The notes below the pieces were generated by a model, which was not told where the DNA came from, did no database searches, and saw only the letters and a list, made by a program, of their open reading frames with translations. A stretch of 64,000 bases of DNA, taken from assembly GCA_014526335.1 (NCBI GenBank), contig JACTAT010000156.1:218840-282839 (forward strand). The letters run 5' to 3'. This DNA comes from Chrysaora quinquecirrha (taxonomy: Eukaryota > Cnidaria > Scyphozoa > Semaeostomeae > Pelagiidae). The position numbers and the translations under genes are program-made. Below are positions 11,901 through 33,984 of the stretch, one piece after another (the first letter of the stretch is position 1; every line of letters starts with the position of its first letter).

Positions 11901-14900
11901 CAACTAACCAAGCTCGTAGGTATGACTAAAGTCAATGTCTTCGTTTTAAAGATAAATGGACAAAATCTGTAAAACGAAGACATCACTATAAAACCAAAAA
12001 TAAACCAATCCCTGGTCTAGATCATGAATACTTGCATTTATAACGTCCAGAGCACCCTATAAACCAAATATCACAACTAACCAAGCTCGTGGGGATGAGT
12101 TAAGTCAATGTCTTCGTTTTAAAGAAAATGGCCAAAATCTGTAAAACGAAGACATCACTATAAAACCAAAATAAACCAATCCCTGGTCTAAATCATGAAT
12201 ACTTGCATTTATAACGTCCAGAGCACCCTATAATCCAAATATCACAACTAACCAAGCTCGTGGGATGAAAGTCAATGTCTTCGTTTTAAAGATAAATGGA
12301 CAAAATCTGTAAAACGAAGACATCTCTATAAAACCAAAAAACCCAATCAATATTTGGTCTAGGTCATGAATACTTGCATTTATAACGCTCAGAGCACCCT
12401 ATAAACCAAATATCACAACTAACCAAGCTCGTGGGGATGACAAAAGTCAATGTCTTTGTTTTAAAGAAAAATGGCCAAAATCTGTAAAACGAAGACATCA
12501 CTATAAAACCAAAAATAAACCAATCCCTGGTCTAAATCATGAATACTTGCATTTATAACGTCCAGAGCACCCTATAAACCAAATATCACAACTAACCAAG
12601 CTCGTGGGGATGACTAAAGTCAATGTCTTCGTTTTAAAGAAAATGGCCAAAATCTGTAAAACGAAGACATCTCTATAAAACCAAAATAACCGCAATCTTT
12701 GGTCTAGATCATGAATACTTGCATTTATAACGTCCAGAGCACCCTATAAACCAAATATCACAACTAACCAAGCTCGTGGGGATGAGTTAAGTCAATGTCT
12801 TCGTTTTAAAGAAAAATGGCCAAAATCTGTAAAACGAAGACATCTCTATAAAACCAAAAAAAACCGCAATATTTGGTCTAGATCATGAATACTTGCATTT
12901 ATAACGCCCAGAGCACCCTATAAACCAAATATCACAACTAACCAAGCTCATGGGGATGAGATAAGTCAATGTCTTCGTTTTAAAGAAAAATGGCCAAAAT
13001 CTGTAAAACGAAGACATCACTATAAAACCAAAAAAACCAATCCCTGGTCTAAATCATGAATACTTGCATTTATAACGTCCAGAGCACCCCATAAACCAAA
13101 TATCACAACTAACCAAGCTCGTGGGATGACTAAAGTCAATGTCTTCGTTTTAAAGAAAATGGCCAAAATCTGTAAAACGAAGACATCTGTAAAACGAAGA
13201 CATCCCTATAAAACCAAAATAACCGCAATCTTTGGTCTAGATCATGAATACTTGCATTTATAACGTCCAGAGCACCCTATAAACCAAATATCACAACTAA
13301 CCAAGCTCGTGGGGATGAGTAAAGTCAATGTCTTCGTTTTAAAGAAAAATGGCCAAAATCTGTAAAACGAAGACATCACTATAAAACCAAAAATAAACCA
13401 ATCCCTGGTCTAAATAAACCAATCCCTGGTCTAAATCATGAATACTTGCATTTATAACGTCCAGAGCACCCTATAAACCAAATATCACAACTAACCAAGC
13501 TCGTGGGGATGAGTTAAGTCAATGTCTTCGTTTTAAAGAAAAAAAATGGCAAAAATCTGTAAAACGAAGACATCCCTATAAAACCAAAAAATGGACAAAA
13601 TCCGCAATATTTGGTCTAGATCATGAATACTTGCATTCATAACGTCCAGAGCACCCTATAAACCAAATATCACAACTAACCAAGCTCGTGGGGATGAGTT
13701 AAGTCAATGTCTTCGTTTTAAAGAAAAATGGCCAAAATCTGTAAAACGAAGACATCACTATAAAACCAAAAATAAACCAATCCCTGGTCTAAATCATGAA
13801 TACTTGCATTTATAACGTCCAGAGCACCCTATAATCCAAATATCACAACTAACCAAGCTCGTGGGGATGACTAAAGTCAATGTCTTCGTTTTAAAGATAA
13901 ATGGACAAAATCTGTAAAACGAAGACATCTCTATAAAACCAAAAAAAACCCAATCTTTAAACGATTTCTTTGGTCTAGGTCATGAATATTTGCACTTATA
14001 ACGCTCAGAGGACTCTATAAACCAAATATCACAACTAACCAAGCTCGTAGGTATGACTAAAGTCAATGTCTTCGTTTTAAAGAAAAATGGACAAAATCTG
14101 TAAAACGAAGACATCACTATAAAACCAAAATAAACCAATCCCTGGTCTAGATCATGAATACTTGCATTTATAACGTCCAGAGCACCCTATAAACCAAATA
14201 TCACAACTAACCAAGCTCGTGGGGATGAGTTAAGTCAATGTCTTCGTTTTAAAGAAAATGGCCAAAATCTGTAAAACGAAGACAACACTATAAAACCAAA
14301 AATAAACCAATCCCTGGTCTAAATCATGAATACTTGCATTTATAACGTCCAGAGCACCCTATAAACCAAATATCACAACTAACCAAGCTCGTGGGGATGA
14401 GTTAAGTCAATGTCTTCGTTTTAAAGATAAATGGACAAAATCTGTAAAACGAAGACATCTCTATAAAACCAAAAACCCAATCTTTAAACGATTTCTTTGG
14501 TCTAGGTCATGAATATTTGCACTTATAACGCTCAGAGGACTCTATAAACCAAATATCACAACTAACCAAGCTCGTAGGTATGACTAAAGTCAATGTCTTC
14601 GTTTTAAAGATAAATGGACAAAATCTGTAAAACGAAGACATCACTATAAAACCAAAAATAAACCAATCCCTGGTCTAAATCATGAATACTTGCATTTATA
14701 ACGTCCAGAGCACCCTATAAACCAAATATCACAACTAACCAAGCTCGTGGGGATGAGTTAAGTCAATGTCTTCGTTTTAAAGAAAATGGCCAAAATCTGT
14801 AAAACGAAGACATCTCTATAAAACCAAAAAAACCGCAATATTTGGTCTAGATCATGAATACTTGCATTTATAACGTCCAGAGCACCCTATAAACCAAATA

Positions 14901-17900
14901 TCACAACTAACCAAGCTCGTGGGGATGAGATAAGTCAATGTCTTCGTTTTAAAGAAAATGGCCAAAATCTGTAAAACGAAGACATCACTATAAAACCAAA
15001 AATAAACCAATCCCTGGTCTAAATCATGAATACTTGCATTTATAACGTCCAGAGCACCCCATAAACCAAATATCACAACTAACCAAGCTCGTGGGATGAC
15101 TAAAGTCAATGTCTTCGTTTTAAAGAAAATGGCCAAAATCTGTAAAACGAAGACATCTCTATAAAACCAAAATAACCGCAATCTTTGGTCTAGATCATGA
15201 ATACTTGCATTTATAACGTCCAGAGCACCCTATAAACCAAATATCACAACTAACCAAGCTCGTGGGGATGAGTTAAGTCAATGTCTTCGTTTTAAAGAAA
15301 ATGGCCAAAATCTGTAAAACGAAGACATCACTATAAAACCAAAATAAACCAATCCCTGGTCTAAATCATGAATACTTGCATTTATAACGTCCAGAGCACC
15401 CTATAAACCAAATATCACAACTAACCAAGCTCGTGGGGATGACTAAAGTCAATGTCTTCGTTTTAAAGAAAATGGCCAAAATCTGTAAAACGAAGACATC
15501 TCTATAAAACCAAAATAACCGCAATCTTTGGTCTAGATCATGAATACTTGCATTTATAACGTCCAGAGCACCCTATAAACCAAATATCACAACTAACCAA
15601 GCTCGTGGGGATGAGTTAAGTCAATGTCTTCGTTTTAAAGAAAATGGCCAAAATCTGTAAAACGAAGACATCTCTATAAAACCAAAATAACCGCAATCTT
15701 TGGTCTAGATCATGAATACTTGCATTTATAACGTCCAGAGCACCCTATAATCCAAATATCACAACTAACCAAGCTCGTGGGATGACTAAAGTCAATGTCT
15801 TCGTTTTAAAGATAAATGGACAAAATCTGTAAAACGAAGACATCTCTATAAAACCAAAAAACCCAATCTTTAAACGATTTCTTTGGTCTAGGTCATGAAT
15901 ATTTGCACTTATAACGCTCAGAGGACTCTATAAACCAAATATCACAACTAACCAAGCTCGTAGGTATGACTAAAGTCAATGTCTTCGTTTTAAAGATAAA
16001 TGGACAAAATCTGTAAAACGAAGACATCACTATAAAACCAAAAATAAACCAATCCCTGGTCTAGATCATGAATACTTGCATTTATAACGTCCAGAGCACC
16101 CTATAAACCAAATATCACAACTAACCAAGCTCGTGGGGATGAGTTAAGTCAATGTCTTCGTTTTAAAGAAAAATGGCCAAAATCTGTAAAACGAAGACAA
16201 CACTATAAAACCAAAAATAAACCAATCCCTGGTCTAAATCATGAATACTTGCATTTATAACGTCCAGAGCACCCTATAATCCAAATATCACAACTAACCA
16301 AGCTCGTGGGATGACTAAAGTCAATGTCTTCGTTTTAAAGATAAATGGACAAAATCTGTAAAACGAAGACATCTCTATAAAACCAAAAAACCCAATCTTT
16401 AAACGATTTCTTTGGTCTAGGTCATGAATATTTGCACTTATAACGCTCAGAGGACTCTATAAACCAAATATCACAACTAACCAAGCTCGTAGGTATGACT
16501 AAAGTCAATGTCTTCGTTTTAAAGATAAATGGACAAAATCTGTAAAACGAAGACATCACTATAAAACCAAAAATAAACCAATCCCTGGTCTAAATCATGA
16601 ATACTTGCATTTATAACGTCCAGAGCACCCTATAAACCAAATATCACAACTAACCAAGCTCGTGGGGACTAAAGTCAATGTCTTCGTTTTAAAGAAAATG
16701 GCCAAAATCTGTAAAACGAAGACATCTCTATAAAACCAAAATAACCGCAATCTTTGGTCTAGATCATGAATACTTGCATTTATAACGTCCAGAGCACCCT
16801 ATAAACCAAATATCACAACTAACCAAGCTCGTGGAATGAGTTAAGTCAATGTCTTCGTTTTAAAGAAAAATGGCCAAAATCTGTAAAACGAAGACATCTC
16901 TATAAAACCAAAAAACCGCAATATTTGGTCTAGATCATGAATACTTGCATTTATAACGTCCAGAGCACAGTATCACAACTAACGGAGCTCGTGGGGAGTG
17001 ACGTAAAGTCAATGTCTTCGTTTTAAAGAAAAATGGCCAAAATCTGTAAAACGAAGACATCACTATAAAACCAAAAATAAACCAATCCCTGGTCTAAATC
17101 ATGAATACTTGTATTTATAACGTCCAGAGCACCCTATAAACCAAATATCACAACTAACCAAGCTCGTGGGGATGACAAAAGTCAATGTCTTCGTTTTAAA
17201 GAAAATGGCCAAAATCTGTAAAACGAAGACATCTCTATAAAACCAAAATAACCGCAATCTTTGGTCTAGATCATGAATACTTGCATTTATAACGTCCAGA
17301 GCACCCTATAAACCAAATATCACAACTAACCAAGCTCGTGGGGATGAGTTAAGTCAATGTCTTCGTTTTAAAGAAAATGGCCAAAATCTGTAAAACGAAG
17401 ACATCACTATAAAACCAAAATAAACCAATCCCTGGTCTAAATCATGAATACTTGCATTTATAACGTCCAGAGCACCCTATAAACCAAATATCACAACTAA
17501 CCAAGCTCGTGGGGATGACTAAAGTCAATGTCTTCGTTTTAAAGAAAATGGCCAAAATCTGTAAAACGAAGACATCTCTATAAAACCAAAATAAAACAAT
17601 CCCTGGTCTAGATCATGAATACTTGCATTTATAACGTCCAGAGCACCCTATAAACCAAATATCACAACTAACCAAGCTCGTGGGGATGACTAAAGTCAAT
17701 GTCTTCGTTTTAAAGAAAAATGGCCAAAATCTGTAAAACGAAGACATCACTATAAAACCAAAATAAACCAATCCCTGGTCTAAATCATGAATACTTGCAT
17801 TTATAACGTCCAGAGCACCCTATAAACCAAATATCACAACTAACCAAGCTCGTGGGATGACTAAAGTCAATGTCTTCGTTTTAAAGAAAAATGGCCAAAA

Positions 17901-20900
17901 TCTGTAAAACGAAGACATCTCTATAAAACCAAAATAACCGCAATCTTTGGTCTAGATCATGAATACTTGCATTTATAACGTCCAGAGCACCCTATAAACC
18001 AAATATCACAACTAACCAAGCTCGTGGGGATGAATGTCTTCGTTTTAAGTCAATGTCTTCGTTTTAAAGAAAAATGGCACAAAATCTGTAAAACGAAGAC
18101 ATCACTATAAAACCAAAATAAACCAATCCCTGGTCTAGAATCATGAATACTTGCATTTATAACGTCCAGAGCACCCTATAAACCAAATATCACAACTAAC
18201 CAAGCTCGTGGGGATGAGTTAAGTCAATGTCTTCGTTTTAAAGAAAAATGGCCAAAATCTGTAAAACGAAGACATCACTATAAAACCAAAAAAACCAATC
18301 CGCAATCCCTGGTCTAGATCATGAATACTTGCATTTATAACGTCCAGAGCACCCTATAAACCAAATATCACAACTAACCAAGCTCGTGGGGATGACTAAA
18401 GTCAATGTCTTCGTTTTAAAGATAAATGGACAAAATCTGTAAAACGAAGACATCTCTATAAAACCAAAATAACCCAATCTTTGGTCTAGATCATGAATAC
18501 TTGCATTTATAACGTCCAGAGCACCCTATAAACCAAATATCACAACTAACCAAGCTCGTGGGGATGAGTTAAGTCAATGTCTTCGTTTTAAAGAAAATGG
18601 CCAAAATCTGTAAAACGAAGACAACACTATAAAACCAAAATAAACCAATCCCTGGTCTAAATCATGAATACTTGCATTTATAACGTCCAGAGCACCCTAT
18701 AATCCAAATATCACAACTAACCAAGCTCGTGGGATGACTAAAGTCAATGTCTTCGTTTTAAAGATAAATGGACAAAATCTGTAAAACGAAGACATCTCTA
18801 TAAAACCAAAAAACCCAATCTTTAAACGATTTCTTTGGTCTAGGTCATGAATATTTGCACTTATAACGCTCAGAGGACTCTATAAACCAAATATCACAAC
18901 TAACCAAGCTCGTAGGTATGACTAAAGTCAATGTCTTCGTTTTAAAGATAAATGGACAAAATCTGTAAAACGAAGACATCACTATAAAACCAAAAATAAA
19001 CCAATCCCTGGTCTAAATCATGAATACTTGCATTTATAACGTCCAGAGCACCCTATAAACCAAATATCACAACTAACCAAGCTCGTGGGATGACTAAAGT
19101 CAATGTCTTCGTTTTAAAGAAAATGGCCAAAATCTGTAAAACGAAGACATCTCTATAAAACCAAAATAACCGCAATCTTTGGTCTAGATCATGAATACTT
19201 GCATTTATAACGTCCAGAGCACCCTATAAACCAAATATCACAACTAACCAAGCTCGTGGGAATGAGTTAAGTCAATGTCTTCGTTTTAAAGAAAAATGGC
19301 CAAAATCTGTAAAACGAAGACATCTCTATAAAACCAAAAAACCGCAATATTTGGTCTAGATCATGAATACTTGCATTTATAACGTCCAGAGCACCCTATA
19401 AACCAAATATCACAACTAACCAAGCTCATGGGGATGAGATAAGTCAATGTCTTCGTTTTAAAGAAAATGGCCAAAATCTGTAAAACGAAGACATCACTAT
19501 AAAACCAAAATAAACCAATCCCTGGTCTAAATCATGAATACTTGTATTTATAACGTCCAGAGCACCCTATAAACCAAATATCACAACTAACCAAGCTCGT
19601 GGGGATGACTAAAGTCAATGTCTTCGTTTTAAAGAAAATGGCCAAAATCTGTAAAACGAAGACATCTCTATAAAACCAAAATAACCGCAATCTTTGGTCT
19701 AGATCATGAATACTTGCATTTATAACGTCCAGAGCACCCTATAAACCAAATATCACAACTAACCAAGCTCGTGGGGATGAGTTAAGTCAATGTCTTCGTT
19801 TTAAAGAAAATGGCCAAAATCTGTAAAACGAAGACATCACTATAAAACCAAAATAAACCAATCCCTGGTCTAAATCATGAATACTTGCATTTATAACGTC
19901 CAGAGCACCCTATAAACCAAATATCACAACTAACCAAGCTCGTGGGGACTAAAGTCAATGTCTTCGTTTTAAAGAAAATGGCCAAAATCTGTAAAACGAA
20001 GACATCTCTATAAACCAAAATAACCGCAATCTTTGGTCTAGATCATGAATACTTGCATTTATAACGTCCAGAGCACCCTATAAACCAAATATCACAACTA
20101 ACCAAGCTCGTGGGGATGAGTTAAGTCAATGTCTTCGTTTTAAAGAAAATGGCCAAAATCTGTAAAACGAAGACATCTCTATAAAACCAAAATAACCGCA
20201 ATCTTTGGTCTAGATCATGAATACTTGCATTTATAACGTCCAGAGCACCCTATAATCCAAATATCACAACTAACCAAGCTCGTGGGATGACTAAAGTCAA
20301 TGTCTTCGTTTTAAAGATAAATGGACAAAATCTGTAAAACGAAGACATCTCTATAAAACCAAAAAACCCAATCTTTAAACGATTTCTTTGGTCTAGGTCA
20401 TGAATATTTGCACTTATAACGCTCAGAGGACTCTATAAACCAAATATCACAACTAACCAAGCTCGTAGGTATGACTAAAGTCAATGTCTTCGTTTTAAAG
20501 ATAAATGGACAAAATCTGTAAAACGAAGACATCACTATAAAACCAAGAATAAACCAATCCCTGGTCTAGATCATGAATACTTGCATTTATAACGTCCAGA
20601 GCACCCTATAAACCAAATATCACAACTAACCAAGCTCGTGGGGATGAGTTAAGTCAATGTCTTCGTTTTAAAGAAAATGGCCAAAATCTGTAAAACGAAG
20701 ACATCACTATAAAACCAAAATAAACCAATCCCTGGTCTAAATCATGAATACTTGCATTTATAACGTCCAGAGCACCCTATAATCCAAATATCACAACTAA
20801 CCAAGCTCGTGGGGATGACTAAAGTCAATGTCTTCGTTTTAAAGATAAATGGACAAAATCTGTAAAACGAAGACATCTCTATAAAACCAAAATACCCAAT

Positions 20901-21134
20901 CTTTAAACGATTTCTTTGGTCTAGGTCATGAATATTTGCACTTATAACGCTCAGAGGACTCTATAAACCAAATATCACAACTAACCAAGCTCGTAGGTAT
21001 GACTTAAGTCAATGTCTTCGTTTTAAAGATAAATGGACAAAATCTGTAAAACGAAGACATCACTATAAAACCAAGAATAAACCAATCCCTGGTCTAGATC
21101 ATGAATATTTGCACTTATAACGTCCAGAGCACCC
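8936..21134 (+). repeat. Large satellite array, about 172-bp monomer, about 71 copies
   Basis: Head-to-tail monomers start near 8940, 9111, 9284 and 9457, giving periods of 171-173 bp, and continue for 12.2 kb. Each monomer holds GTCAATGTCTTCGTTTTAAAG, then CTGTAAAACGAAGACATC (an inverted repeat of its start), CATGAATACTTGCATTTATA, GTCCAGAGCACCCTATAAAC and CTAACCAAGCTCGTGGGG. Two main variants alternate; the rarer one carries TTTAAACGATTTC and AACGCTCAGAGGACTC. Short internal indels and partial duplications occur, for example near 11101, 13190, 13410 and 18035. The same monomer appears inverted at 27232-30312. Confidence 0.97.
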
Positions 21135-21136
21135 TA

Positions 21137-21458
21137 CTCTTAGGTGCCTAATTGCCGTCCCCCCGCTTATTAATTTTTGAAAATTTTTCCAACCCCCAAT
21201 CTTATTAGGACCCCCACTTATTAAATTTTTCAACTTCGCGTAAGTGACGCGTTTTGAAAATTCATATCAGAGTATTCAAAATCACAAATTAAATAGATAC
21301 CAGTCTTGCATGGACAAAATAAGATAAAACTTTGGTCTGAGTCTTGAGTCATTTTAACAAAATCCAACCCCCCGCTAATTGGGACCCCCCGGCAATTAAT
21401 TTTCAACAAAAATCCAACCCCCGCTAATTGGGACCCCCGGCAATTAGGCACCTAAGAG
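21137..21458. mobile_element. TA-flanked MITE inserted in the satellite array
   Basis: A 322-bp insertion with perfect terminal inverted repeats of about 21 bp (starting CTCTTAGGTGCC, ending GGCACCTAAGAG). It interrupts a monomer exactly at its CCCTATAAACC site and is flanked by a TA duplication at 21135-21136 and 21459-21460. The interior has several GGGACCCCC/AATTAATTTT-like blocks in both orientations and no transposase. TA duplications and short inverted repeats fit a non-autonomous Tc1/mariner-type element; that class is inferred. Confidence 0.85.
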
Positions 21459-21622: not shown

Positions 21623-24340
21623 TTAACGAAAGATTACTCCAAGTTCAGATTTTAAATAGTCCTTATGTGACTCTCGAAGCATATCTCTGACGTCAGTTGT
21701 AATCTCAACATAATCCGGTGTGAAATAAGGGAATCGTTCCATAATACATTTCTTTCTTGTGTGATAGAACCTTGTTGTTTCCTTTTTTGACGCACGCTTT
21801 TTGCTCCAGTCACCTTCTACTGGATAATACCACCTTTCATCATGTGCCCGTACAAGGTCAAAAGGCATAATACGTTGGCGATGGCAAAAGTCAACATCGC
21901 ATGTTTTGCATTTGCTTGCATTCTCAGGTAGAAAGAGGAGGCGAAACTGATTTTCATTGTGATGTATCAGAGTATAGGGATTTGTTGATTCACTTGTACC
22001 ACTTGAAACTTCTTTAGATTCACGAATCTTCAAAGCATCAACTCGAGGTACTTTCTTTGGGGGTCTGTATCTCCACTTGTTCCTTGATCCTTTCTTCCCA
22101 GCGACATTTTTGCACACATCATGTTCTGCTAGAGAGGTTTTGTTGCGTTTTTTGTTGAACTTCTTGTGAATGAACTCCAGATGTTGACTTAAAATTGACT
22201 TTAATTGAGCAACAGCAAGGGAGTGCTTGCATATGCCATCATGGCGAAATCTCCCACATATGCATGTGGCATGATCATGGTACAATGTCACAGAAACAGT
22301 GCCATGCTTGGTACTTTTGCTTGCAACTTCGAAGCAAACTTTGGCATGAACTTGTAAATCTGCTTTCCTCTGAATGGCGTGTGGATGGTTGATTAATAAA
22401 TTGACTTCTTCTTCAAGAGTGGTTGCGCCCTCTGTTGAGTAACCAAAATGATCCACTAGTTTCCCTTTCAAGTCAATATCAACAGCCTGATATTCCACAT
22501 TTTGATCGTCTGGTACATTGCATTGTGGCCAAGGGACATCTTTACACTGTATGATGTCCTCCATTGTCAATTTCTGAATTCTGGCAAGATATTCTTTTCT
22601 CATATTGGCCGTCCATTCATACCAGATTTCAGCTGGTACCTGAAAAGGCTTGCCAATTTCTTGCAATTCATATTCATCACTCAGTCCAGCAATTGCTGCT
22701 TGGTATTCCTCTTGTTCATGCCGATGTACTTCCTCAAACACATATTTCACAAACTGCATTTTGTTGAGATTGCTAACTCCTTGGTTTCTGCGAATATAAG
22801 CTTCTTTGGCTGATTTGAATACTTTGTTCATGGATTCAGAATTGTTGGTGTAACATCTAAGAATCTTGTTATCATCACCTTGCATCATTCCTCCCTTCTT
22901 TCGGACTTTTTCAACCATATGTTTTCGCATCATGTCGTAATGTTTATCAAGGTATGTCCAGTATTTTGGAACATAATTTTCTCTGGCTTGTTTCTGCAAT
23001 AGTGTTTCTTTCTTATCCATTTCATCTCGAATTGAGTCAAGGCGCTGACGCAAATCATTACTATCGAAAGCATCAAGAACGCCCTCCACTTTGCCTTTTA
23101 CACCAAATGTTTTCTCCAAAAAATATCTCTGGTCTTTTTTTTCTCGAATTCCTATTTGTCGTAGTTCGTCGGTGCAATTACCTTCGAAGTGTTTGAAACA
23201 TCTTAGTGCCTTGCCACTTTTTAACTCATCTTTAAAAGCCTTTTGAAGCTGCTCTTCTCCATCAGTAATAAATCCTCTCACCTTTTTAAACTTTGGTGAT
23301 ACTGTTGTGCATTTTGCAGCAAATATTCTATATGCCTCGTATGTTTTTCTGTGATGTATCATAGTAGGCCCTAAAAATATAGGGCTTTCGCCTGTCCTTT
23401 TTACCTTTAAAAGAAGATGCTTGTAAACGATCGGCGTAACCTCAAAAGAACCCATGTTGAATGTAGGGTCAACGCTTATAGGATGGGAGAATACCTCAGA
23501 CGTCGTGAAACGTTCAAGGTCTCGGCACATAATATTAGTTCCAAAAATCCAAAGGTCCTCTGGAAAGTCGGTATGATGCAATACCAGATCATCCTTGTCT
23601 CTGGCATATTTTAGGAGATCCGCGACATCATCGTTTGAATTTTCATCCAGCCTTGCTTTCAAATTGTACAATTGCTGCCTGCCACGGGGAATATCTGATG
23701 GATTGGGTACACCACTTATTCCGCCAGCACTTTGTCTTACTTCATTGTATACAGTGGCTGCTTGCTTATTCTGGAGTCCTGTTTTCATTGATGCTATCGT
23801 ACTTTTTTTGGTTGGAAAGTATGGCCGTTTTTCAATAGATTTGCTATTTCCGTGGCCTTGTACTGCAAATTCAACTCTTCCCTCGTCGTTTTCAACAATG
23901 TATTGCAATATGCAAACATTGTTTACATAATTTCCTTCATTATCTTTTAAAAGAAATATTGATCGCGTCAGAGAAGGAGCTGATTTGTTTCTTCTGGAAT
24001 TTTGGAGAAGATGGTACTCATTTAGGTTACTGATTGGAACTTCTTTACGCTGCATAACATACCATTTACTGTCAATCTCTTGCATTGTTGTGACACCACA
24101 TTTGATATATCCATCATATACCCCATTCATGTCGGCTTTGAGATCTTCCCAATGCATAAAACATCTTAAATCTATGAGAAATGATGCAGTCTCTCGAACT
24201 TTCAACGGCTGTTGCGTACATTTGAGGGTATTTGCCCCACTGCTTGTGATTATAGAGATTGCTTCTTTCGATGAATATCTACTTTGCCGTCCGGCCTCGT
24301 AAATAGGTATTTTCGTATCATTTTTCCAATACTCAACCTT
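21623..24340 (-). CDS. MULE-type transposase with SWIM zinc finger (last exon of a fused gene)
   Basis: The 906-codon exon starts after a TTTTATTTTAG acceptor at 24341 and ends at the stop at 21623. A DDE-like core is visible, numbering from the internal Met at 24205: Asp246 in SVDPTFNMG, Asp315 in GFITDGEEQLQKAF followed by CFKHFEGN, and Glu457 in TNNSESMNKVFK. A SWIM finger (CxCx8CxH, CICGRFRHDGICKH) lies at residues 648-661. This order, transposase core then SWIM, is characteristic of Mutator-like (MULE) transposases, which cut and paste DNA by recognising terminal inverted repeats. A further Cys/His cluster (CKTCDVDFCH) follows near the C terminus. The frame is uninterrupted over 2.7 kb, so this copy looks recently active. 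Inverted satellite arrays on both sides are the likely substrate. The exact MULE family and the DDE assignment need an alignment. Confidence 0.9.
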   Translation of the reverse strand, partial: KVEYWKNDTKIPIYEAGRQSRYSSKEAISIITSSGANTLKCTQQPLKVRETASFLIDLRCFMHWEDLKADMNGVYDGYIKCGVTTMQEIDSKWYVMQRKEVPISNLNEYHLLQNSRRNKSAPSLTRSIFLLKDNEGNYVNNVCILQYIVENDEGRVEFAVQGHGNSKSIEKRPYFPTKKSTIASMKTGLQNKQAATVYNEVRQSAGGISGVPNPSDIPRGRQQLYNLKARLDENSNDDVADLLKYARDKDDLVLHHTDFPEDLWIFGTNIMCRDLERFTTSEVFSHPISVDPTFNMGSFEVTPIVYKHLLLKVKRTGESPIFLGPTMIHHRKTYEAYRIFAAKCTTVSPKFKKVRGFITDGEEQLQKAFKDELKSGKALRCFKHFEGNCTDELRQIGIREKKDQRYFLEKTFGVKGKVEGVLDAFDSNDLRQRLDSIRDEMDKKETLLQKQARENYVPKYWTYLDKHYDMMRKHMVEKVRKKGGMMQGDDNKILRCYTNNSESMNKVFKSAKEAYIRRNQGVSNLNKMQFVKYVFEEVHRHEQEEYQAAIAGLSDEYELQEIGKPFQVPAEIWYEWTANMRKEYLARIQKLTMEDIIQCKDVPWPQCNVPDDQNVEYQAVDIDLKGKLVDHFGYSTEGATTLEEEVNLLINHPHAIQRKADLQVHAKVCFEVASKSTKHGTVSVTLYHDHATCICGRFRHDGICKHSLAVAQLKSILSQHLEFIHKKFNKKRNKTSLAEHDVCKNVAGKKGSRNKWRYRPPKKVPRVDALKIRESKEVSSGTSESTNPYTLIHHNENQFRLLFLPENASKCKTCDVDFCHRQRIMPFDLVRAHDERWYYPVEGDWSKKRASKKETTRFYHTRKKCIMERFPYFTPDYVEITTDVRDMLRESHKDYLKSELGVIFR

Positions 24341-24610
24341 CTAAAATAAAATGAATATCATGAGTTTTTAGAAATCAAACTGCATTTAGGAGGATTCCTA
24401 TTAATCTAAGCGATTTGGTAACCAGCAATTGTTCCCTTTTAAGAATTTTCAGTAGGCCTATTCAGGCCATTTCGAATTTTCTCACAAAGATCTGTTGAAA
24501 TTTGCGTTGTGCGTTGTGCGTTGTGCGATGTGCGTTATGCGAACCTTTTCAAGTAAATTTGAACGAAATTGTACCGTATTGAGGGTTACTAAAATCTTTA
24601 TAAACATTAC

Positions 24611-24869
24611 CTCTGTGATAATGAATGGTGATATATCTGCAAGAACTTCAATCTCATCAGTGCTGTTCTCTTGTTCAGTCTCACAAGAGCTGATTATGTC
24701 AATACGCTCGGAGAGGTCAATGCTTTGAATGGAATCCTTACTATTTCTGCTGCTAGGTGTACTTGAATCACAAATTTCAATGGCTTGAATTTCAGAATCT
24801 GCGTCTTCATCAGAAGTTTCACGACAGGAGTCCATAATCTCCGCTCCATATCTTTCCCCTATAAATGGC
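24611..24869 (-). CDS. Acidic Ser/Asp/Glu-rich linker exon of the fused gene
   Basis: This 259-bp exon runs from a TTTTAACAG acceptor to a GAG|GTAATG donor. It starts in phase 2, completing an Arg codon with the previous exon, and ends in phase 0, matching the transposase exon. It encodes a hydrophilic stretch (for example SCRETSDEDADSEIQAIEI) rich in acidic and Ser residues, probably a disordered linker between the peptidase-like and transposase regions. An internal ATG at 24835 could alternatively start a separate transposase protein of about 980 residues if a promoter lay upstream. Confidence 0.7.
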
Positions 24870-25045
24870 CTGTTAAAAGAATGAGAAAAGATGAATTTTT
24901 TGACCTGAAATTTGAAATGAAAAAAAAACTAGATTAATTACAGTTCAAACGATAATATTTCACTACCTCGCGTCACTTTCATACAATGCTGTCAGAAACC
25001 GCGCGGCACAATAATGCAAGGCATTAAACAATGAGTTTTACATAC

Positions 25046-25110
25046 CTAAAAGGTGACTTTTTATCATTCACGCCGACCATGTCTAAGTTATTTCCATTCA
25101 GATTCAGGTT
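25046..25110 (-). CDS. Short linker exon of the fused gene
   Basis: A 65-bp exon with a CTTTCGCAG acceptor and a TTTTAG|GTATGT donor. It gives 21 codons (starting NLNLNGNNLDMVG) plus two bases; phase 0 in and phase 2 out agree exactly with the exons on both sides. The agreement of two splice sites and two phases is the reason for calling so short an exon. Confidence 0.65.
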
Positions 25111-25233
25111 CTGCGAAAGAATTATCATCATCAGTATTATTATTGCAATTACTATCATCTCACGTTCACATTGTATAGCTATCTGCGCATCATTCAGACT
25201 GCATTGAATAAATTAATAACCAAAGAAACTTAC

Positions 25234-25959
25234 AATGCTGACTCTTTTTGAGCGATTTCCAATTGAGAAAGATTGTGTCATGTTCGGATCTACGCCTGAA
25301 TTAGTAAGTCTACACCATACCCAACGGCAAAGAGCTATGCAAGATGTTTTGTCGGAAGCATTGTATACCCTTACTTGACCATTTCCAATTCCTCCTGCAC
25401 TGCTAGGTACAGCATGAGTGTCTGTCAAGAATAAAGCGTTTCCAATTTTTCCAATAGACACTGCATATGGTTCGCAAATGTATATTCCTATTGAATCATC
25501 TTCTTTTGATACCATTTCCTCTAACCTCTCTCTGAAGCGATGACGACTAATGGGGTCAAATACTCCTTCATTATGAGGCAGCTCTTCTGTAAAGGTGTAG
25601 TCGTAGAATAGGTGATTGTGCTCTCGCATTAAGGCATTTGCTTCCAGCAGAGCGTACATTTTATCTTTGTCTCTAACTGAATTCAACTGTACAGGAAATC
25701 TGTTAATGATTCTCGTAGAAATATCGGCAAGCGTATCTGCAACAACATCTGTGCTAGCAATCATTTTCTCTTGGGGTACTTTGCAAATTATATCGTCACA
25801 TATTTTCAGTGAAAGAAATACGCATGCGTTTGTGCCATCATTTGAAACACCGTTGTTTGAATCGAAAACCAACTGCGTCTTTCCAGTAGCAATTTGCTTA
25901 GCCATCTCACAGTGTTTTCTTTCCAATGCACTTCCTTGGCTTACAGATAAATTTCTCAC
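25234..25959 (-). CDS. Cysteine-peptidase-like domain of the fused gene
   Basis: About 242 codons follow the kinase directly and end at an excellent ATT|GTAAGT donor. Numbered from the GTG at 25959, a conserved-looking block SNDGTNACVFLSLKI places Cys46 at the start of a helix, and LFLTDTHAVP places His182 (with Asp180) late in the domain. This Cys-early, His-late layout with D-x-H resembles papain-fold peptidases, including OTU-type and herpesvirus-tegument-type deubiquitinases. The family is not securely recognised. If active it might cut ubiquitin or process the fused protein; this is inference. There is no ATG at its start, and its frame is offset by one base from the kinase, whose stop overlaps it, so it is best read as the continuation of the kinase exon across a one-base defect. 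A programmed frameshift is an alternative. Confidence 0.6.
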
Positions 25960-27071
25960 CGCGCATGAACAATTTGACTGTAATTTTCAATTTCATTTTG
26001 AATAGCTGCAGTAGTGCGTACACGTTTAGATACATCAGTATTTGTTAAACGCTCATACAGTTCTGCAATCACCCACCACTTTGAAGCATGCATATGTTTG
26101 TACTTATGCGCACATCTTGGCCTCTGTTCATTTCTTAAGAGCTCTTCCAATTTCTGCCTGGGATCTAAAGTAGGTGATGCTAGAAGTTCTTCATCTATCT
26201 CTGTTGAGTAGGGGTATGGGAGGGAAGGATTAACAACAGCAAATAAAATCATTCCCAATGCCCAAATATCTGCAGCCTTTAAATCGTCCATTGTTGCATA
26301 TGCAGGTCTTCTTTCTTGCAGAATGATCTCGGGAGCCATATAGGCAGGGGTCCCTCTATTTAAGGAAGTAACTCTTGATGTTAAAATACTTTGTGTTTGT
26401 ACCATTTTCGATCTGCTTTCACCGAAATCAGTTACTTTACAAATAATAGGCGATTTTCCCACTTTCCACTGCCTGAGAAATGATTCCTGATCCTTGCCAC
26501 TTATCATGTGTTGGTTGCTAACAAGAACGTTTCCAGGTTTCAAATCTCGATGTACGACGTCTTGTTCGTGAAGATATGCCAAAGCAGCAACGAGATCGTT
26601 CATAATAGTGAGAGGCAGGTGTTCAAACCCTTTAAAATCATAATCCATGTCAATATGACTAAGAAGCTGCGACAATGTGCTGACTACAGATTCACCGCCA
26701 AATGGCGCAAAAGAAAAGCAAACATATTCTTGCATTATGGCAAACGATTTTCTACATATCCCATAAAATGATACGACGTTTTTGTGTTTGCTTACCCTAT
26801 CTAACAGTCTGGCCTCTTTGAGAAATTCTCGCTCCTGACCTTGGATATCATATGGTTGTTTAATGACAACAACCCTTGCAGGCTCACCAGTTTTTGGTTT
26901 GAATATGGCCTTGTCAACTGTTCCAAAACTGCCTCTCCCGACCTGTTCCTTGAACACAACGTCATCAAAAGAAAATATTGGAAAGTCAAACACATCTTCG
27001 AAAGCTTTCTTTCTCACAGGACAAGGAAGTTTAAACTCGTTCATCAGTTCAAAAATTTCCGTCAGCAATGG
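25956..27071 (-). CDS. Serine/threonine-type protein kinase domain (N-terminal part of the fused gene)
   Basis: An essentially complete protein kinase catalytic domain. Numbering from the TTG at 27068: Gly-rich loop VGRGSFGTV (43-51), ATP-binding Lys70 in VVVIKQP, catalytic loop VHRDLKPGN with Asp175, TDFGES with Asp214, activation-segment end YMAPE (243-247), and DIWALGMILF. The key catalytic residues are present, so it should phosphorylate Ser/Thr substrates; the sequence looks closest to TKL-type kinases. A possible acceptor (CTACAAG) lies just upstream at 27072, and ATG at 27044 is the first internal Met. The frame ends in a stop at 25956 that overlaps the next domain by one frame. Restoring one base in the preceding A-rich stretch would join kinase and peptidase. 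A kinase fused to a transposase is unusual. Confidence 0.9.
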   Translation of the reverse strand, partial: PLLTEIFELMNEFKLPCPVRKKAFEDVFDFPIFSFDDVVFKEQVGRGSFGTVDKAIFKPKTGEPARVVVIKQPYDIQGQEREFLKEARLLDRVSKHKNVVSFYGICRKSFAIMQEYVCFSFAPFGGESVVSTLSQLLSHIDMDYDFKGFEHLPLTIMNDLVAALAYLHEQDVVHRDLKPGNVLVSNQHMISGKDQESFLRQWKVGKSPIICKVTDFGESRSKMVQTQSILTSRVTSLNRGTPAYMAPEIILQERRPAYATMDDLKAADIWALGMILFAVVNPSLPYPYSTEIDEELLASPTLDPRQKLEELLRNEQRPRCAHKYKHMHASKWWVIAELYERLTNTDVSKRVRTTAAIQNEIENYSQIVHAR

Positions 27072-27125
27072 CTTGTAGTTGAATCAAGAAAGAACGAGGC
27101 AAGCTCAGCCACTGTGGTCTTAAAC

Positions 27126-27164
27126 CGCCTGCTGTGAGATCAAAGTTTGATTGGCACCATTCAT
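27126..27164 (-). CDS. Tentative first coding exon of the kinase-transposase gene
   Basis: ATG at 27164 opens 13 codons (MNGANQTLISQQA) ending in phase 0 at a weak donor (GTTTAA). A candidate acceptor at 27072 continues in phase 0 into the kinase exon. The intron would be only about 54 bp and the donor is poor, so translation may instead start at ATG 27044 or further upstream. The exon lies within 100 bp of the right satellite array, which would then contain or abut the promoter. Confidence 0.3.
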
Positions 27165-27231: not shown

Positions 27232-30200
27232 GGAATTATTTAAAACGTTATAAATGCAAGTATTCATGATTTAGACCAGGGATTGGTTTATTTTTGGTTT
27301 TATAGTGATGTCTTCGTTTTACAGATTTTGGCCATTTTTCTTTAAAAAGAAGACATCGACTTTAGTCGTCCCCACGAGCTTAGTTAGTTGTGATATTTGG
27401 TTTATAGGGTGCTCTGGACGTTATAAATGCAAGTATTCATGATCTAGACCAGGGATTGTTTTATTTTTGGTTTTATAGGGATGTCTTCGTTTTACAGATT
27501 TTTGCCATTTTTCTTTAAAACGAAGACATTGACTTAACTCATCCCCACGGGCTTGGTTAGTTTTGATATTTGGTTTATAGGGTGCTCTGGACGTTATAAA
27601 TGCAAGTATTCATGATTTAGACCAAAGATTGCGGTTATTTTGGTTTTATAGAGATGTCTTCGTTTTACAGATTTTTGCCATTTTTCTTTAAAACGAAGAC
27701 ATTGACTTAACTCATCCCCACGAGCTTAGTTAGTTGTGATATTTGGTTTATAGGGTGCTCTGGACGTTATAAATGCAAGTATTCATGATCTAGACCAAAG
27801 ATTGCGGTTATTTTGGTTTTATAGAGATGTCTTCGTTTTACAGATTTTGGCCATTTTTCTTTAAAACGAAGACATTGACTTTAGTCATCCCCACGAGCTT
27901 GGTTAGTTGTGATATTTGGTTTATGGGGTGCTCTGGACGTTATAAATGCAAGTATTCATGATTTAGACCAGGGATTGGTTTATTTTTTGTTTTATAGTGA
28001 TGTCTTCGTTTTACAGATTTTGGCCATTTTTCTTTAAAACAAAGACATCGACTTTAGTCGTCCCCACGAGCTTAGTTAGTTGTGATATTTGGTTTATAGG
28101 GTGCTCTGGACGTTATAAATGCAAGTATTCATGATCTAGACCAGGGATTGTTTTATTTTTGGTTTTATAGGGATGTCTTCGTTTTACAGATTTTTGCCAT
28201 TTTTCTTTAAAACGAAGACATTGACTTAACTCATCCCCACGGGCTTGGTTAGTTTTGATATTTGGTTTATAGGGTGCTCTGGACGTTATAAATGCAAGTA
28301 TTCATGATTTAGACCAGGGATTGGTTTATTTTTGGTTTTATAGTGATGTCTTCGTTTTACAGATTTTGGCCATTTTTCTTTAAAACGAAGACATCGACTT
28401 TAGTCGTCCCCACGAGCTTAGTTAGTTGTGATATTTGGTTTATAGGGTGCTCTGGACGTTATAAATGCAAGTATTCATGATCTAGACCAGGGATTGTTTT
28501 ATTTTTGGTTTTATAGGGATGTCTTCGTTTTACAGATTTTTGAAATTTTTCTTTAAAACGAAGACATTGACTTAACTCATCCCCACGGGCTTGGTTAGTT
28601 TTGATATTTGGTTTATAGGGTGCTCTGGACGTTATAAATGCAAGTATTCATGATCTAGACCAAAGATTGCGGTTATTTTGGTTTTATAGGGATGTCTTCG
28701 TTTTACAGATTTTGGCCATTTTTCTTTAAAACGAAGACATTGACTTAACTCATCCCCACGAGCTTGGTTAGTTGTGATATTTGGTTTATAGGGTGCTCTG
28801 GACGTTATAAATGCAAGTATTCATGATCTAGACCAAAGATTGCGGTTATTTTGGTTTTATAGAGATGTCTTCGTTTTACAGATTTTGGCCATTTTTCTTT
28901 AAAACGAAGACATTGACTTTAGTCATCCCCACGAGCTTGGTTAGTTGTGATATTTGGTTTATGGGGTGCTCTGGACGTTATAAATGCAAGTATTCATGAT
29001 CTAGACCAAATATTGCGGTTTTTTTGGTTTTATAGGGATGTCTTCGTTTTACAGATTTTTGCCATTTTTCTTTAAAACGAAGACATTGACTTAACTCATC
29101 CCCACGGGCTTGGTTAGTTTTGATATTTGGTTTATAGGGTGCTCTGGACGTTATAAATGCAAGTATTCATGATCTAGACCAGGGATTGGTTTATTTTTAG
29201 TTTTATAGTGATGTCTTCGTTTTACAGATTTTGGCCATTTTTCTTTAAAACGAAGACATCGACTTTTGTCATCCCCACGAGCTTGGTTAGTTGTGATATT
29301 TGGTTTATAGGGTGCTCTGGACGTTATAAATGCAAGTATTCATGATTTAGACCAGGGATTGGTTTATTTTTGGTTTTATAGTGATGTCTTCGTTTTACAG
29401 ATTTTGGCCATTTTTCTTTAAAACGAAGACATTGACTTTAGTCGTCCCCACGAGCTTAGTTAGTTGTGATATTTGGTTTATAGGGTGCTCTGGACGTTAT
29501 GAATGCAAGTATTCATGATCTAGACCAAATATTGCGGTTTTTTTGGTTTTATAGGGATGTCTTCGTTTTACAGATTTTTGCCATTTTTCTTTAAAACGAA
29601 GACATCGACTTAACTCATCCCCACGAGCTTGGTTAGTTGTGATATTTGGTTTATAGGGTGCTCTGGGCGTTATAAATGCAAGTATTCATGATCTAGACCA
29701 GGGATTGGTTTATTTTTGGTTTTATAGTGATGTCTTCGTTTTACAGATTTTGGCCATTTTTCTTTAAAACGAAGACATCGACTTTTGTCATCCCCACGAG
29801 CTTGGTTAGTTGTGATATTTGGTTTATAGGGTGCTCTGGACGTTATAAATGCAAGTATTCATGATTTAGACCAGGGATTGGTTTATTTTTGGTTTTATAG
29901 TGATGTCTTCGTTTTACAGATTTTGGCCATTTTTCTTTAAAACGAAGACATTGACTTTAGTCGTCCCCACGAGCTTAGTTAGTTGTGATATTTGGTTTAT
30001 AGGGTGCTCTGGACGTTATGAATGCAAGTATTCATGATCTAGACCAAATATTGCGGTTTTTTTGGTTTTATAGGGATGTCTTCGTTTTACAGATTTTTGC
30101 CATTTTTCTTTAAAACGAAGACATCGACTTAACTCATCCCCACGAGCTTGGTTAGTTGTGATATTTGGTTTATAGGGTGCTCTGGGCGTTATAAATGCAA

Positions 30201-30312
30201 GTATTCATGATCTAGACCAGGGATTGGTTTATTTTTGGTTTTATAGTGATGTCTTCGTTTTACAGATTTTGGCCATTTTTCTTTAAAACGAAGACATCGA
30301 CTTTTGTCATCA
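27232..30312 (-). repeat. Satellite array, about 172-bp monomer, inverted orientation, about 18 copies
   Basis: The same monomer as at 8936-21134 but in reverse complement: blocks now read GTTATAAATGCAAGTATTCATG, ATGTCTTCGTTTTACAGATT and AAAACGAAGACATTGAC. About 18 head-to-tail copies form the right flank of the kinase-transposase gene. Blocks of several monomers repeat nearly identically within the array (for example 29100-29640 and 29640-30190). The outermost copy stops near 30312 within the GACTTTTGTCATC part of the monomer, close to the monomer position at which the left array begins. Confidence 0.97.
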
Positions 30313-30820
30313 TCGCGGTTTAATCTATTTCTTTTGCTTGTTGTCTTGATCGTTGATTAGATTTCGTAAAAGCGTATTTCATTGTATTCTATTTGGATAT
30401 TGTCTTCGGTCTTCGGTCTTCGGTCTTCGGTCTTCGTTTTGTTGTTCTTCGTTCTTCGGTTTTCGTTTTGTAGACTCCCGCGATTAATGTGCTGAAATCG
30501 ATTTTCGCCCAGACTTCATTTCTCGGAAAACAATGGGCCGTAACAGCCGTGTGTCGTGTCAGTCGCGGCCTAGGCCTGTGAAAACTTGAAGCAAAAATTG
30601 GAAAGGAGCTATTCAAGGGCCCATAAATGACAAGAATTTGATAACTAAATTTAAAGAAATCACCAGAAATAAAATTCTAAATGAATTAATTCGTCCACTT
30701 ACCACCATTTCCTGCAGAAAACGTCGAAATGAACTTTCACTTCACGATCCACGCCATCAGCTAATTTTGATTTCGCGCCAAAATGATTTCAGTACAGACC
30801 TCTCGACGCCCTGTGCAGTT
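30313..30820. other. Right flank of the satellite array, with a short TCTTCGG microsatellite
   Basis: No gene was recognised. At about 30402-30475 there is a (GGTCTTC)n run grading into TTCGTTTTG-type repeats. They resemble the GTCTTCGTTTT arm of the neighbouring satellite monomer. Open frames in this stretch are driven by the repeat. Confidence 0.5.
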
Positions 30821-31115
30821 CCCAGCTTTTCAAAAAATGCTGGGTAAATCCAAGACGTGGACATTTTCATTTGATATCACTGCTCAAATTCCAAGCTTCC
30901 CCGAAAAGCTGGGAAAAGTCACCGCTAGATTTCTGCAAGTCTGATGAGCCTCCCAGTTTTCCTAGAAAGCTGGGCAAATAATTCCTAGCTTTCCCACAAA
31001 GCTGGGTTAAAATATTTGTCATCAAAAATTGAGCTAGGAAAAAAGCTGGGCAAACTGGGAAAATCCTAGGAAATCCTAGCTTTCCCAGTTCTAGTCCCAG
31101 CTTTTTTGGTACGGG
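30821..31115 (-). repeat. AGCTGGG/CCTAGG-rich interspersed element, right copy (inverted)
   Basis: Reverse-oriented relative of the element at 1902-2220. It ends with CCCAGCTTTTTTGGTACGGG, the exact reverse complement of that element's first 20 bases, and has the same TTTCCCAGCTTTCC/AATCCTAGG texture inside. Together the two copies enclose the satellites and the kinase-transposase cassette. Confidence 0.6.
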
Positions 31116-31260
31116 ACATCTATACATGTGTATGTATATATGTATATGTACATGTATATCTGTCTTAAATTCTTTGACAGAAGTAAAACGTTGTCAGTGT
31201 AAACGAATTAAAAACAAGTTTTATAAGTTAAAGTCGATTTAATGACGAGATTTGTATTAC

Positions 31261-31487
31261 AATCTTGGACAAAATATATTGGAACGGCCTAAATAGTTTT
31301 GCTATTATCTATTGATCCCCCCTTCTCCCCCGTTACAATGTTGTTTCGTATAAAAGTTTTCTTGCTCTACTACCAACATTGTTTTGGGGGTAAAAGGGGG
31401 AAGAATTGGAGCTATGGAAGTAGAAAATCAATGGAATAGGCCACATTCTTTGGAGAAAATGCGTTGTTCCAAATATTTTGTCCAAGA
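31261..31487. mobile_element. Foldback MITE-like element
   Basis: The ends form an inverted repeat of about 24 bases (CAATCTTGGACAAAATAT on the left, ATATTTTGTCCAAGATT on the right). A second inverted pair lies inside (CAATGTTG / CAACATTG with flanking C- and G-runs). No coding sequence is present. The left end follows TA, but the right duplication is degraded. The interior resembles that of the MITE at 34320. Confidence 0.6.
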
Positions 31488-31499
31488 TTTTTTCTAATT

Positions 31500-31700
31500 T
31501 CACTCTGGGTGAAAAACCCTTTGAGGAAGTTAACGACTTCCAGCAAAACCCGATAGGGTTTTTTCACTGTCTTAAAAACCCCTTAAGATCTCAAACAACC
31601 CTTTGAAAAACCCCTTTAAAGAGGGACGTCACAAAGGTTTTTAAAAACCCTAGCTGTGCGAAAAACCCTTGCCGATTTGAAAACCCTGTCAAGCACCCTT
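31500..31700. repeat. Degenerate AAAACCCTT-rich repeat
   Basis: Irregular AAAAACCC(TT) motifs and their GGGTTTTT complements recur about ten times in 200 bp, without a fixed period. It looks like a decayed short tandem repeat. Confidence 0.4.
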
Positions 31701-32963
31701 ATTTTTTGAGTATTATCATCATCATCAGCGTCCTTCGGACATTGCTACAGCGTTGCTATTTTTAAAAACTCTTACAATTCCCTGCTCTAATTTCGTTGGA
31801 TGCCTGACGAGACCAGGAACACTTCAATGCGAATCAACACTTTTCTGACTCAAATAAAGTGAAATTTCCGAGTTTTCTTCATTTTCCCACCCTGTTTTAT
31901 GGGGTTTTGAATAAATCGAACCCATTTTTAGATCATTTCAGGCACAAAGTCCATCCATATGGGCGACACACACCCATAAACAAATAATATCATTACGTAC
32001 CCATCGGCAAAAGCCTGTACTGTACTTTTGGTAGACTCTTACTTCAGTAGATGCGTTCCTACGTCTATTTCACGTCGACTTTGAAGAACTATATCGAATC
32101 TTTGAACCCACATGAAAAAAAAACTGTTTTTACCAAAACAGAAAGCAGCAGTCTCATCAATGGATCCTTGCTTGCCGGACGTCCCCTCTGACATTTTCCA
32201 TCAGCAACATCTTCTCGCAGATGATCGCCGCCTCTAGAAACGGTCATGTAGCCCCTTTCCACTTGCTACCCAGCGCACATTCATTGAAGGTTTTGGCTTA
32301 TTTATTTTGAATTGTAATAACTACATGTTTGCCTCTTGTGACTTTGGAGTGGATTAGAAGTAGTCTAAAAGCTCGCCATCATGGTCTCTAGCTGTATCAC
32401 GACAATTCTGCAGCACAGGGAGCAGGGTCTACGGGAGCGATTCTGCTTGCGTAAAAGAGTCTGAAACCTTGAGAATCCACCTAAAAGATGCTTTATGCTA
32501 TTTTTGTCAAGTAGACGCACTGTGAAATACGCCCCGGGGGGAGGGGGGGACTCCCTAATGTAGGCTGACAGGTATGTGCCCCTCATAAGGGGGAGGTTTC
32601 TTCGAAAATTCCTTACAACTGGGCCCGATTTATTCCTAAAATACCTTTAAAGTGGGTATAGAATAAAATTTCCATAACATTTGGTACACAAATTCATTCA
32701 AAAATCATAAAACTGGCTGGCAGAATGTGTAAAACAATACCTTAAAGGTGGGTTGGTTAGTAAAGTTCGGAGGCACAACCCTGTACATCTCAGGGTCAAG
32801 TATACCCCCCGAGCAATACGATATTGCAGTGGGAGCATTTTAGGAATGCACGCCTAAAATTAACTGTTCTGACTATACAGTATTGAAGAGTACCTTGAGA
32901 AGATATGGAAAGCTTTTAACGCATCTATTTTTCAAATCTAGAAACTAAAACGCCCCCGTACAC
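31701..32963. other. No gene seen
   Basis: Mixed sequence with a short G-run near 32535. Small frames on either strand show no recognisable domain or splice context. Confidence 0.45.
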
Positions 32964-33443
32964 ATGAAATGTGAAGAGATGAGAACAGATCTTGGTATTT
33001 TTCATCTTTTCTTCAGTCAAATCCGTTCAACTGATGTTAAGGACACACATTTACGTCTTCTTTCTTCTGATAGATATCATGGTACGCGTCATTTTCCTAA
33101 TGCGATATACTACATAACTTTTGGCAAACGAAAACACGGCTTTCCCTTCATTGTCCCTCTCATCCCGTTGGAAGACCCAACAGACAACAATTGCACAAAA
33201 GTTATCCATATTTCACCCGTCAACCGAATTCAGAATGTGTGTGATGAGCTGAATTACCAAGATAATTATACCAAATCAGAAAAGATAATTGGAAGATTTT
33301 TAAGAAAACTGTTCCCAAAGCGAAATTTTACAAAATTCAAGACAAACTTGAAAATTTATTGGAATAGAGAGCTTCAGCGAGTTTCTAAGTCGAACGGCAG
33401 CGATAAATTCAATAGAAACGTGTGCGTTGCTACGCGTCGCTAA
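32964..33443 (+). CDS. Open reading frame of unknown function (159 codons)
   Basis: An uninterrupted ATG-to-stop frame encoding a basic protein of 159 residues with scattered aromatic residues (for example YHGTRHFPNAIYYITFGKRK) and a Lys/Arg-rich C-terminal third. There is no signal peptide, membrane segment or recognised motif. It lies on the opposite strand just beyond the last exon found of the discoidin-domain gene. Its composition is more protein-like than the other short frames nearby, but it may be a transposon remnant or chance. Confidence 0.25.
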   Translation: MKCEEMRTDLGIFHLFFSQIRSTDVKDTHLRLLSSDRYHGTRHFPNAIYYITFGKRKHGFPFIVPLIPLEDPTDNNCTKVIHISPVNRIQNVCDELNYQDNYTKSEKIIGRFLRKLFPKRNFTKFKTNLKIYWNRELQRVSKSNGSDKFNRNVCVATRR

Positions 33444-33767
33444 GATTAGGTTGTGATCCAACATGGTGGAAATCAATTTGTCACGTGATTAATGGGATTA
33501 ATGAATTCTCTAATTCCGTCTGAGAAAACGTCGTAAATGAGATTGACTTTAAGCCATCTTAAAAAATATGAAGAAATTCACCCCCGTTACATTACACTGC
33601 TTTCTTACTTAACGATTCCTCTTTAGTTGATTATTACCTATATAGATATGATCCTATAGTAATAACACGATATAAGATGCAAAGACATGATTATTATTTA
33701 TGATAAATGATGATTTCACTTTTTTCTAACGAAACTAATGTAGTACGTAGATTGTAAAGCTTTTTAC

Positions 33768-33984
33768 CTGGAAATTATATTCCGTGAAAATATCTAAATT
33801 TTCAAAATTCGCTGATGAGTTTTTCCAGCGTTGACAACGGGTAAAAACGTTGAATCTGTTGATCTTTTATATTTGATGAGATATTGATCAAGATTTCCAT
33901 TTAATGATTTTGGTTGTTTCCATTCTAATGAGATCCTTGTATCAGTGATTAATGTAGCTGTAACATCAATCGGTGCAGTTGCAG
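33768..33984 (-). CDS. Exon 14: fibronectin type III domain (second)
   Basis: It follows a long-T acceptor (TTTTTTTGCAG) and ends CAG|GTAAAA. The FN3 signature is clear: TAPIDVTATL, then ISLEWKQP (strand B-C Trp), QYLIKYK and, in a shifted frame, NLDIFTEYNFQ (the conserved Tyr-containing F strand). The frame shift falls in an AAAAA run near 33818; one more A would keep the domain open. The entry phase does not clearly match the end of exon 13, so an intervening exon may be missed. Confidence 0.75.

Follow-up and report, generated by a model that had tools for sequence, protein, structure and literature searches.

Are a protein kinase, a cysteine peptidase, and a transposase that lie in a row on one strand of jellyfish DNA mere neighbors, or are they parts of one protein, and what could a transposon do with such a protein? 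The question arises in a 64,000-nucleotide stretch from Chrysaora quinquecirrha (GenBank assembly GCA_014526335.1, contig JACTAT010000156.1, positions 218,840–282,839), here called the window, for which a first-pass annotation had proposed a single fused gene. Positions below are those within the window. The gene lies at 21623–27044 on the minus strand and, judged by its sequence, encodes three domains, a protein kinase (K) that is complete, a cysteine peptidase (P), and a Mutator-like (MULE) transposase (T), an order written here as K-P-T. We regard it as nearly certain that the three form one fused gene on a mobile MULE. With moderate confidence, the locus is interpreted as a copy of a cut-and-paste MULE transposon encoding a single protein, a kinase joined to a viral tegument-like deubiquitinase (VTD), a linker, and a DDE transposase with a SWIM-like finger, in which the added domains have the roles proposed below.

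Three minus-strand open reading frames (ORFs) underlie the gene: a kinase frame at 25956–27083, a peptidase-like frame at 25213–25986, and a transposase frame of 905 amino acids at 21623–24340. The start codon of K-P-T is probably at 27044, where the sequence MNEFKLP resembles the MFKFPKL and MFPLPKI of relatives. Three introns are predicted between P and T, all on the minus strand. The peptidase exon ends at 25234 and is followed by intron 1 (25111–25233, GTAAGT...CAG), a 65-bp linker exon (25046–25110), intron 2 (24870–25045, GTATGT...CAG), a 259-bp linker exon (24611–24869) with a linker at the matching place in two other loci (L031 and L045), and intron 3 (24341–24610, GTAATG...TAG). The donors and acceptors are consensus-like. 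Joining 25234–25986, 25046–25110, 24611–24869, and 21623–24340 gives a 1264-residue frame whose sole stop is the last codon, and the splice motifs and phases 0, 2, 0 described in the first-pass annotation hold in this translation. Its statement that the kinase exon runs into the peptidase is correct for two near-identical copies, L029 and L030, but not for the window copy, which is one base shorter than both near 25988; its kinase frame stops at 25956, one base out of register with P. The kinase-peptidase junction (25956–25990, minus strand) was placed by alignment and by the L029 ORF that crosses it. In L029 a single frame of 623 codons covers both K and P; in L030 a frame of 417 codons covers K and the beginning of P.

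Support for the fusion that does not depend on splicing comes from two loci and from public proteins. L045 has a 1206-codon stop-free frame with K, P, and over half of T (profile positions 7–507 of 888), and L031 has a 1215-codon frame of the same composition (positions 2–572 of 888). Alignments A2 and A4, used as queries against public proteins, matched at least five and at least six sequences, and by profile at least six public proteins (P0002, P0003, P0004, P0005, P0006, and P0007) carry all three domains, some of them truncated or rearranged. The fused architecture proposed at the outset is thus found beyond this locus. P0008, with the source label Dendronephthya gigantea, has K and P, and P0009 is a 140-residue peptidase piece. 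P0005 and P0007 are named at source as Ser/Thr and mitogen-activated protein kinases (names abbreviated), with labels (Seg..., GoldUCD) that we take to be those of an Aurelia jellyfish project.

The 328-Mb host genome was searched with T, P, and K, giving at least 51, 105, and at least 111 matches. The best 50 of 350 T candidates, the best 109 of 294 K candidates, and all 124 P candidates were scored, which makes the T and K counts lower bounds. The matches clustered into at least 46 T, 88 P, and at least 97 K places. A same-strand kinase lies within 5 kb upstream in at least 62 of the 88 P clusters; among the matches listed, none has an upstream kinase on the opposite strand and one has K downstream. 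T follows within 6 kb downstream of at least 21 P clusters and precedes one. P or K lies upstream of at least 30 of the 46 T clusters, and P or T lies downstream of 71 of the 97 K clusters among the matches listed. Kinase and transposase are not always distant from each other, since at least 29 of 46 T clusters have a same-strand kinase within 8 kb upstream. Complete K-P-T triples, uniform in order and strand, occur at 20 or more loci. A stop-free frame containing at least part of both K and P is present at 17 of 24 distinct K+P loci, the window being among the other seven. Among the matches listed, a partner is missing from 26 P clusters, 16 T clusters, and 26 K clusters; some of these clusters are fragments or have partners outside those matches, and others may be true singles.

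The sequences of all three domains were compared with known families. The kinase ORF matches Pfam Pkinase (E = 3.8e-34) at residues 44–362, which places the domain at 25998–26954 on the minus strand. The Lys is kept in 29/29 aligned rows, the HRD Asp in 32/32, and the DFG Asp in 30/32, so that both the profile and the residues identify a eukaryotic protein kinase. Among PDB sequences, K comes closest to TRAF2 and NCK-interacting kinase and proteins like it; the kinase group was left unassigned because these matches are weak (best E = 5.3e-13). K is very likely an active kinase, to judge from its catalytic residues. The peptidase-like region 25213–25986 alone had no significant match in a Pfam search, Herpes_teg_N is matched by 4 of 19 peptidase members, and a PDB sequence search with the peptidase profile returned a single row at E = 1. 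The modeled domain (25240–25968, minus strand) has the papain-like cysteine peptidase fold of VTDs, and its best fold matches are tegument-type deubiquitinases. The VTD triad of Cys and Asp-x-His, the latter an active-site motif described in PMC9741609, is found in the aligned rows with a letter at these positions (Cys 28/29, Asp 30/31, His 30/31). Deubiquitinase activity of P is likely, a little less so than kinase activity of K. The fold search also matched uncharacterized proteins from Catovirus CTV1 (E = 2.0e-3) and from Indivirus ILV1 (E = 8.6e-3), so giant viruses may carry VTD-like deubiquitinases. The window transposase ORF alone gives weak Pfam matches to SWIM (E = 0.011) and MULE (E = 0.1, under the curated cut-off). 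MULE is matched at E ≤ 0.01 by 6 of 13 aligned T rows (best 4.1e-8), the window row lying outside those six. Profiles, a structure model, and conserved columns place D, D, and E residues on an RNase H-like core within the 905-codon exon, with a weak SWIM finger at about 22205–22291; these features assign T to the MULE superfamily. Fold comparison of the T model used VIA-align alone. Pfam matches of the K-P-T proteins contain neither a Rep nor a helicase family, the one exception being ResIII in the window T (E = 0.42). Helitrons are defined by Rep/helicase and no classical transposase; K-P-T instead has a MULE transposase, terminal inverted repeats (TIRs), and 10-bp target duplications.

The ends of the mobile unit were located by comparing copies. 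Over 5.75 kb, and leaving gaps aside, identity to the window is 99.83% for L029 and 99.53% for L030. Tandem Repeats Finder identified a right inverted arm of 17.7 tandem copies of a 173-bp unit (27245–30311) and, together with inverted-repeat analysis, a left arm of about 70 copies (172/173 bp) in the opposite orientation (8938–21136). Inverted 172/173-bp arrays also flank the gene in L029 and L030, and a segment of about 320 bp next to the left arm (21137–21458) is present in the window and L029 and missing from L030. On the right flanks of all three copies, homology stops at one sequence, a terminal repeat whose window copy occupies 30454–30479 on the minus strand. A genome scan with this 26-base pattern at three or fewer mismatches gave 31 forward and 42 reverse matches, and the reversed control gave 0 and 0. 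Two matches bracket the L030 copy as a unit of 10,969 bp (C324:5111833–5122801) with TIRs that are identical across the 301 bp compared and a perfect 10-bp target duplication. The duplication is perfect in 16 of 19 fetched end pairs, a subset of the possible pairs, and agrees at 9 or more of 10 bases in 17 of 19; none of 342 mispaired combinations reached 9 of 10. This length falls within the 8–11 bp expected of a MULE, the window copy contributing a right end only. The imperfect pairs are L056 (9/10), L077/L078 (7/10), and L081/L082 (1/10). The last two may be wrong pairings, and L081/L082 resembles the L057/L058 site. Five short derivatives of 607–1362 bp contain the 173-bp unit. The bracketing termini, duplications, and short derivatives place K, P, and T inside a MULE-type mobile unit with shorter relatives. 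The window copy is larger than the 10,969-bp unit because its inverted arms are built of 173-bp tandem arrays. Its left terminus is gone, and no left counterpart of 30454–30479 is present in the window. In the DNA fetched around the single-frame elements L031, L044, and L045, no TIRs were found.

Two other placements were rejected. The array ends at 8938 and 30311 are not transposon ends with a duplication, as no agreement of 8–10 bp was seen there by eye and the right end is at 30479. Nor is the window copy an allele of a C324 copy, since the right flanks of the three copies, the only flanks compared, differ. L029 and L030 are at other loci; the window right flank (30320–34320) is not beside either C324 copy among the best 40 of 2684 candidates.

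The three domains diverged in parallel. Pairwise distances of K, P, and T correlate across 10 representatives (r = 0.910, 0.903, and 0.855; 0 of 5000 permutations each). Between subfamilies, the ratio of nonsynonymous to synonymous divergence (dN/dS) of P is 0.17–0.19 with dS near 2, and dS of K is saturated except for one pair, whose dN/dS is 0.19. The K and P of the window family cluster with L032/L033 (support 96.3 and 99.7) and its T with the L031 set (support 98.7). Approximately unbiased (AU) tests gave p = 0.037 (K), 0.106 (P), and 0.006 (T), for groups picked after tree inspection and in the presence of long branches. These different groupings hint that element lineages have swapped K and P together.

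The fusion, the mobile unit, its short derivatives with shared ends, the parallel divergence, and the conserved catalytic residues are features of the sequence itself, and the fusion suggests a transposon with its own protein-modification toolkit. In the mechanism we propose, the VTD domain would free the transposase, or host factors present at the transposition complex, of ubiquitin, perhaps of K48 chains, and would so shield them from degradation. The kinase would act on the transposase itself or on host proteins of chromatin, repair, or the ubiquitin system, and their phosphorylation would set the time and place of transposase action. The deubiquitination step has gained structural support from the P model, and phosphorylation is plausible with the catalytic residues kept. 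That P and K stabilize and license the transposase in this way has, in our estimate, slightly under an even chance. A stronger form, in which an active kinase and deubiquitinase act in cis as a private post-translational control, are both needed for efficient transposition, and are swapped as a pair between lineages, is more tentative still.

Several observations weigh against the proposed reading. The gene is interrupted somewhere in all three near-identical copies, and for this reason none of them is shown to be active at present. In the window, K and P are out of frame with each other. The Cys is missing from one P row and the Asp and/or His likewise from one, and the T structure model is moderate (pLDDT, the predicted local distance difference test score, 67.9). 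Within subfamilies, dN/dS reaches 0.39–1.57 for K, 0.41–0.77 for P, and 0.40–1.01 for T, which fits partly decayed copies; low values occur between subfamilies only. L044 (1058–5329) joins K to nearly all of T (2–883 of 888) in a 1423-codon frame in which the peptidase was not found, and at three of the four T loci examined (L083, L084, and L086) neither K nor P was detected in the roughly 6 kb upstream. Because such loci exist, neither K nor P seems strictly required for this type of T.

These same observations bear on other explanations. The T relatives without K or P nearby, and the groupings and AU tests according to which the two added domains may travel together between lineages, would suit a selfish cargo whose kinase and peptidase act in trans on host defense or ubiquitin signaling, the fusion merely securing co-expression. 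We consider this unlikely, although it is the strongest of the alternatives; a DNA-binding transposase would be a strange vehicle for an effector fused to it. The papain-like fold of P and its place between K and T, with a linker on the T side, would also fit a polyprotein that P cuts into separate kinase, peptidase, and transposase, as viral proteases do. Against this are the tegument-type deubiquitinases among the best fold matches of P and a further locus, L085 (5525–7705), where a 727-codon frame joins the last part of K to the first half of T and the peptidase was not found. Self-processing is disfavored because the ubiquitin-tail-like LxGG, the one cleavage motif sought, is absent from 8 of 8 proteins, L044 among them, and because L044 joins K to T without P. 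The polyprotein is accordingly rated improbable.

MULEs often pick up host gene fragments, according to the sections of the animal MULE survey drawn on here (PMC6446971). The frame break between K and P in the window would agree with a kinase and peptidase that are chance neighbors or captured host genes outside the transposon's own protein. The 20 or more triples of constant order and strand, the single frames spanning all three domains, the correlated divergence, and the relatives in other sources make this very improbable, and recent host-gene capture is ruled out by the triples and the correlated divergence, being contradicted for the family as a whole. One-base differences among copies may include sequencing errors; that an assembly artifact joined unrelated genes is nonetheless scarcely credible, given the many loci and the public proteins from other sources.

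The K-P-T element lies within a larger insertion. The allele C141 (L047) lacks exactly window positions 1902–31115, a segment with a perfect 21-bp TIR, CCCGTACCAAAAAAGCTGGGA, at 1902–1922 and 31095–31115 (0 expected by shuffling) and a 2-bp target duplication, AC. We read it as a second transposon enclosing the K-P-T element. The 29-kb segment was rejected as the K-P-T element itself; it differs in its termini and in its duplication of 2 bp, and near-identical copies of K-P-T stop at other points. In the outer transposon, ORFs that reach 120 codons are limited to the K-P-T gene, the translation of one array, and antisense frames, and further tandem arrays of 79-bp and 110-bp units occupy 4012–7805. 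Elsewhere in the window, a coding-like minisatellite with a 51-bp unit (SLVLFLSPEITHGLQSR repeats) forms arrays at 58045–63508, the ORFs at 61112–61495 and 62515–62898 have identical translations, and F5/8 type C (discoidin) domain ORFs at 42064–42426, 44114–44497, and 47102–47686 on the minus strand are perhaps exons of host genes. Rfam and tRNA scans of the window found none.

The ovarian-tumor (OTU) domain is another class of deubiquitinase, and alpha-kinases are a different kinase class from K. The suffix HM of the element name MuDR-6_HM presumably denotes Hydra. The survey of animal MULEs (Dupeyron 2019, PMC6446971) includes a cnidarian Ghost subgroup and lists the element MuDR-6_HM with an OTU domain. 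K-P-T shares with the elements described there the MULE-type transposase, a SWIM finger found in many groups, and long TIRs, and its 10-bp duplications compare with 8–11 bp in the survey table. Its arms are long tandem arrays, in contrast to the TIRs of 14–500 bp given in its text, and the words kinase, peptidase, and protease do not occur in the main text of that survey. The same peptidase fold and Asp-x-His site occur within Helitron transposon proteins (Erven 2022, PMC9741609), where cnidarian genes with a VTD fused to several transposon-associated domains are noted. The VTD carriers named there are Helitrons, and its main text mentions neither kinase nor MULE, whereas K-P-T is a MULE. Fungal IS3EU transposons, as described in part of PMC12730594, carry TET/JBP and alpha-kinase genes. 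They resemble K-P-T as DNA transposons with a kinase, but theirs is a separate, oppositely oriented gene beside the transposase, unfused, and protease does not occur in that part of the source. A Phytophthora MULE with a SET domain is likewise a MULE with a protein-modifying enzyme, in that case a histone methyltransferase; the passages on it (PMC6446971, PMC12730594) mention neither kinase nor deubiquitinase. No transposase-protein kinase fusion was found among the open-access literature matches listed, a search outside which subscription papers and Repbase lie.

To our knowledge, how eukaryotic transposases evade degradation and are timed in the cell is poorly known. A transposase that covalently bears a kinase and a deubiquitinase would make its stability and timing testable, as each activity can be removed singly. 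With this element, tegument deubiquitinases of the herpesvirus type would be tied to a second named class of transposons besides Helitrons. The kinase names given to P0005 and P0007 are a warning that transposons may be tallied as kinases in gene catalogues.

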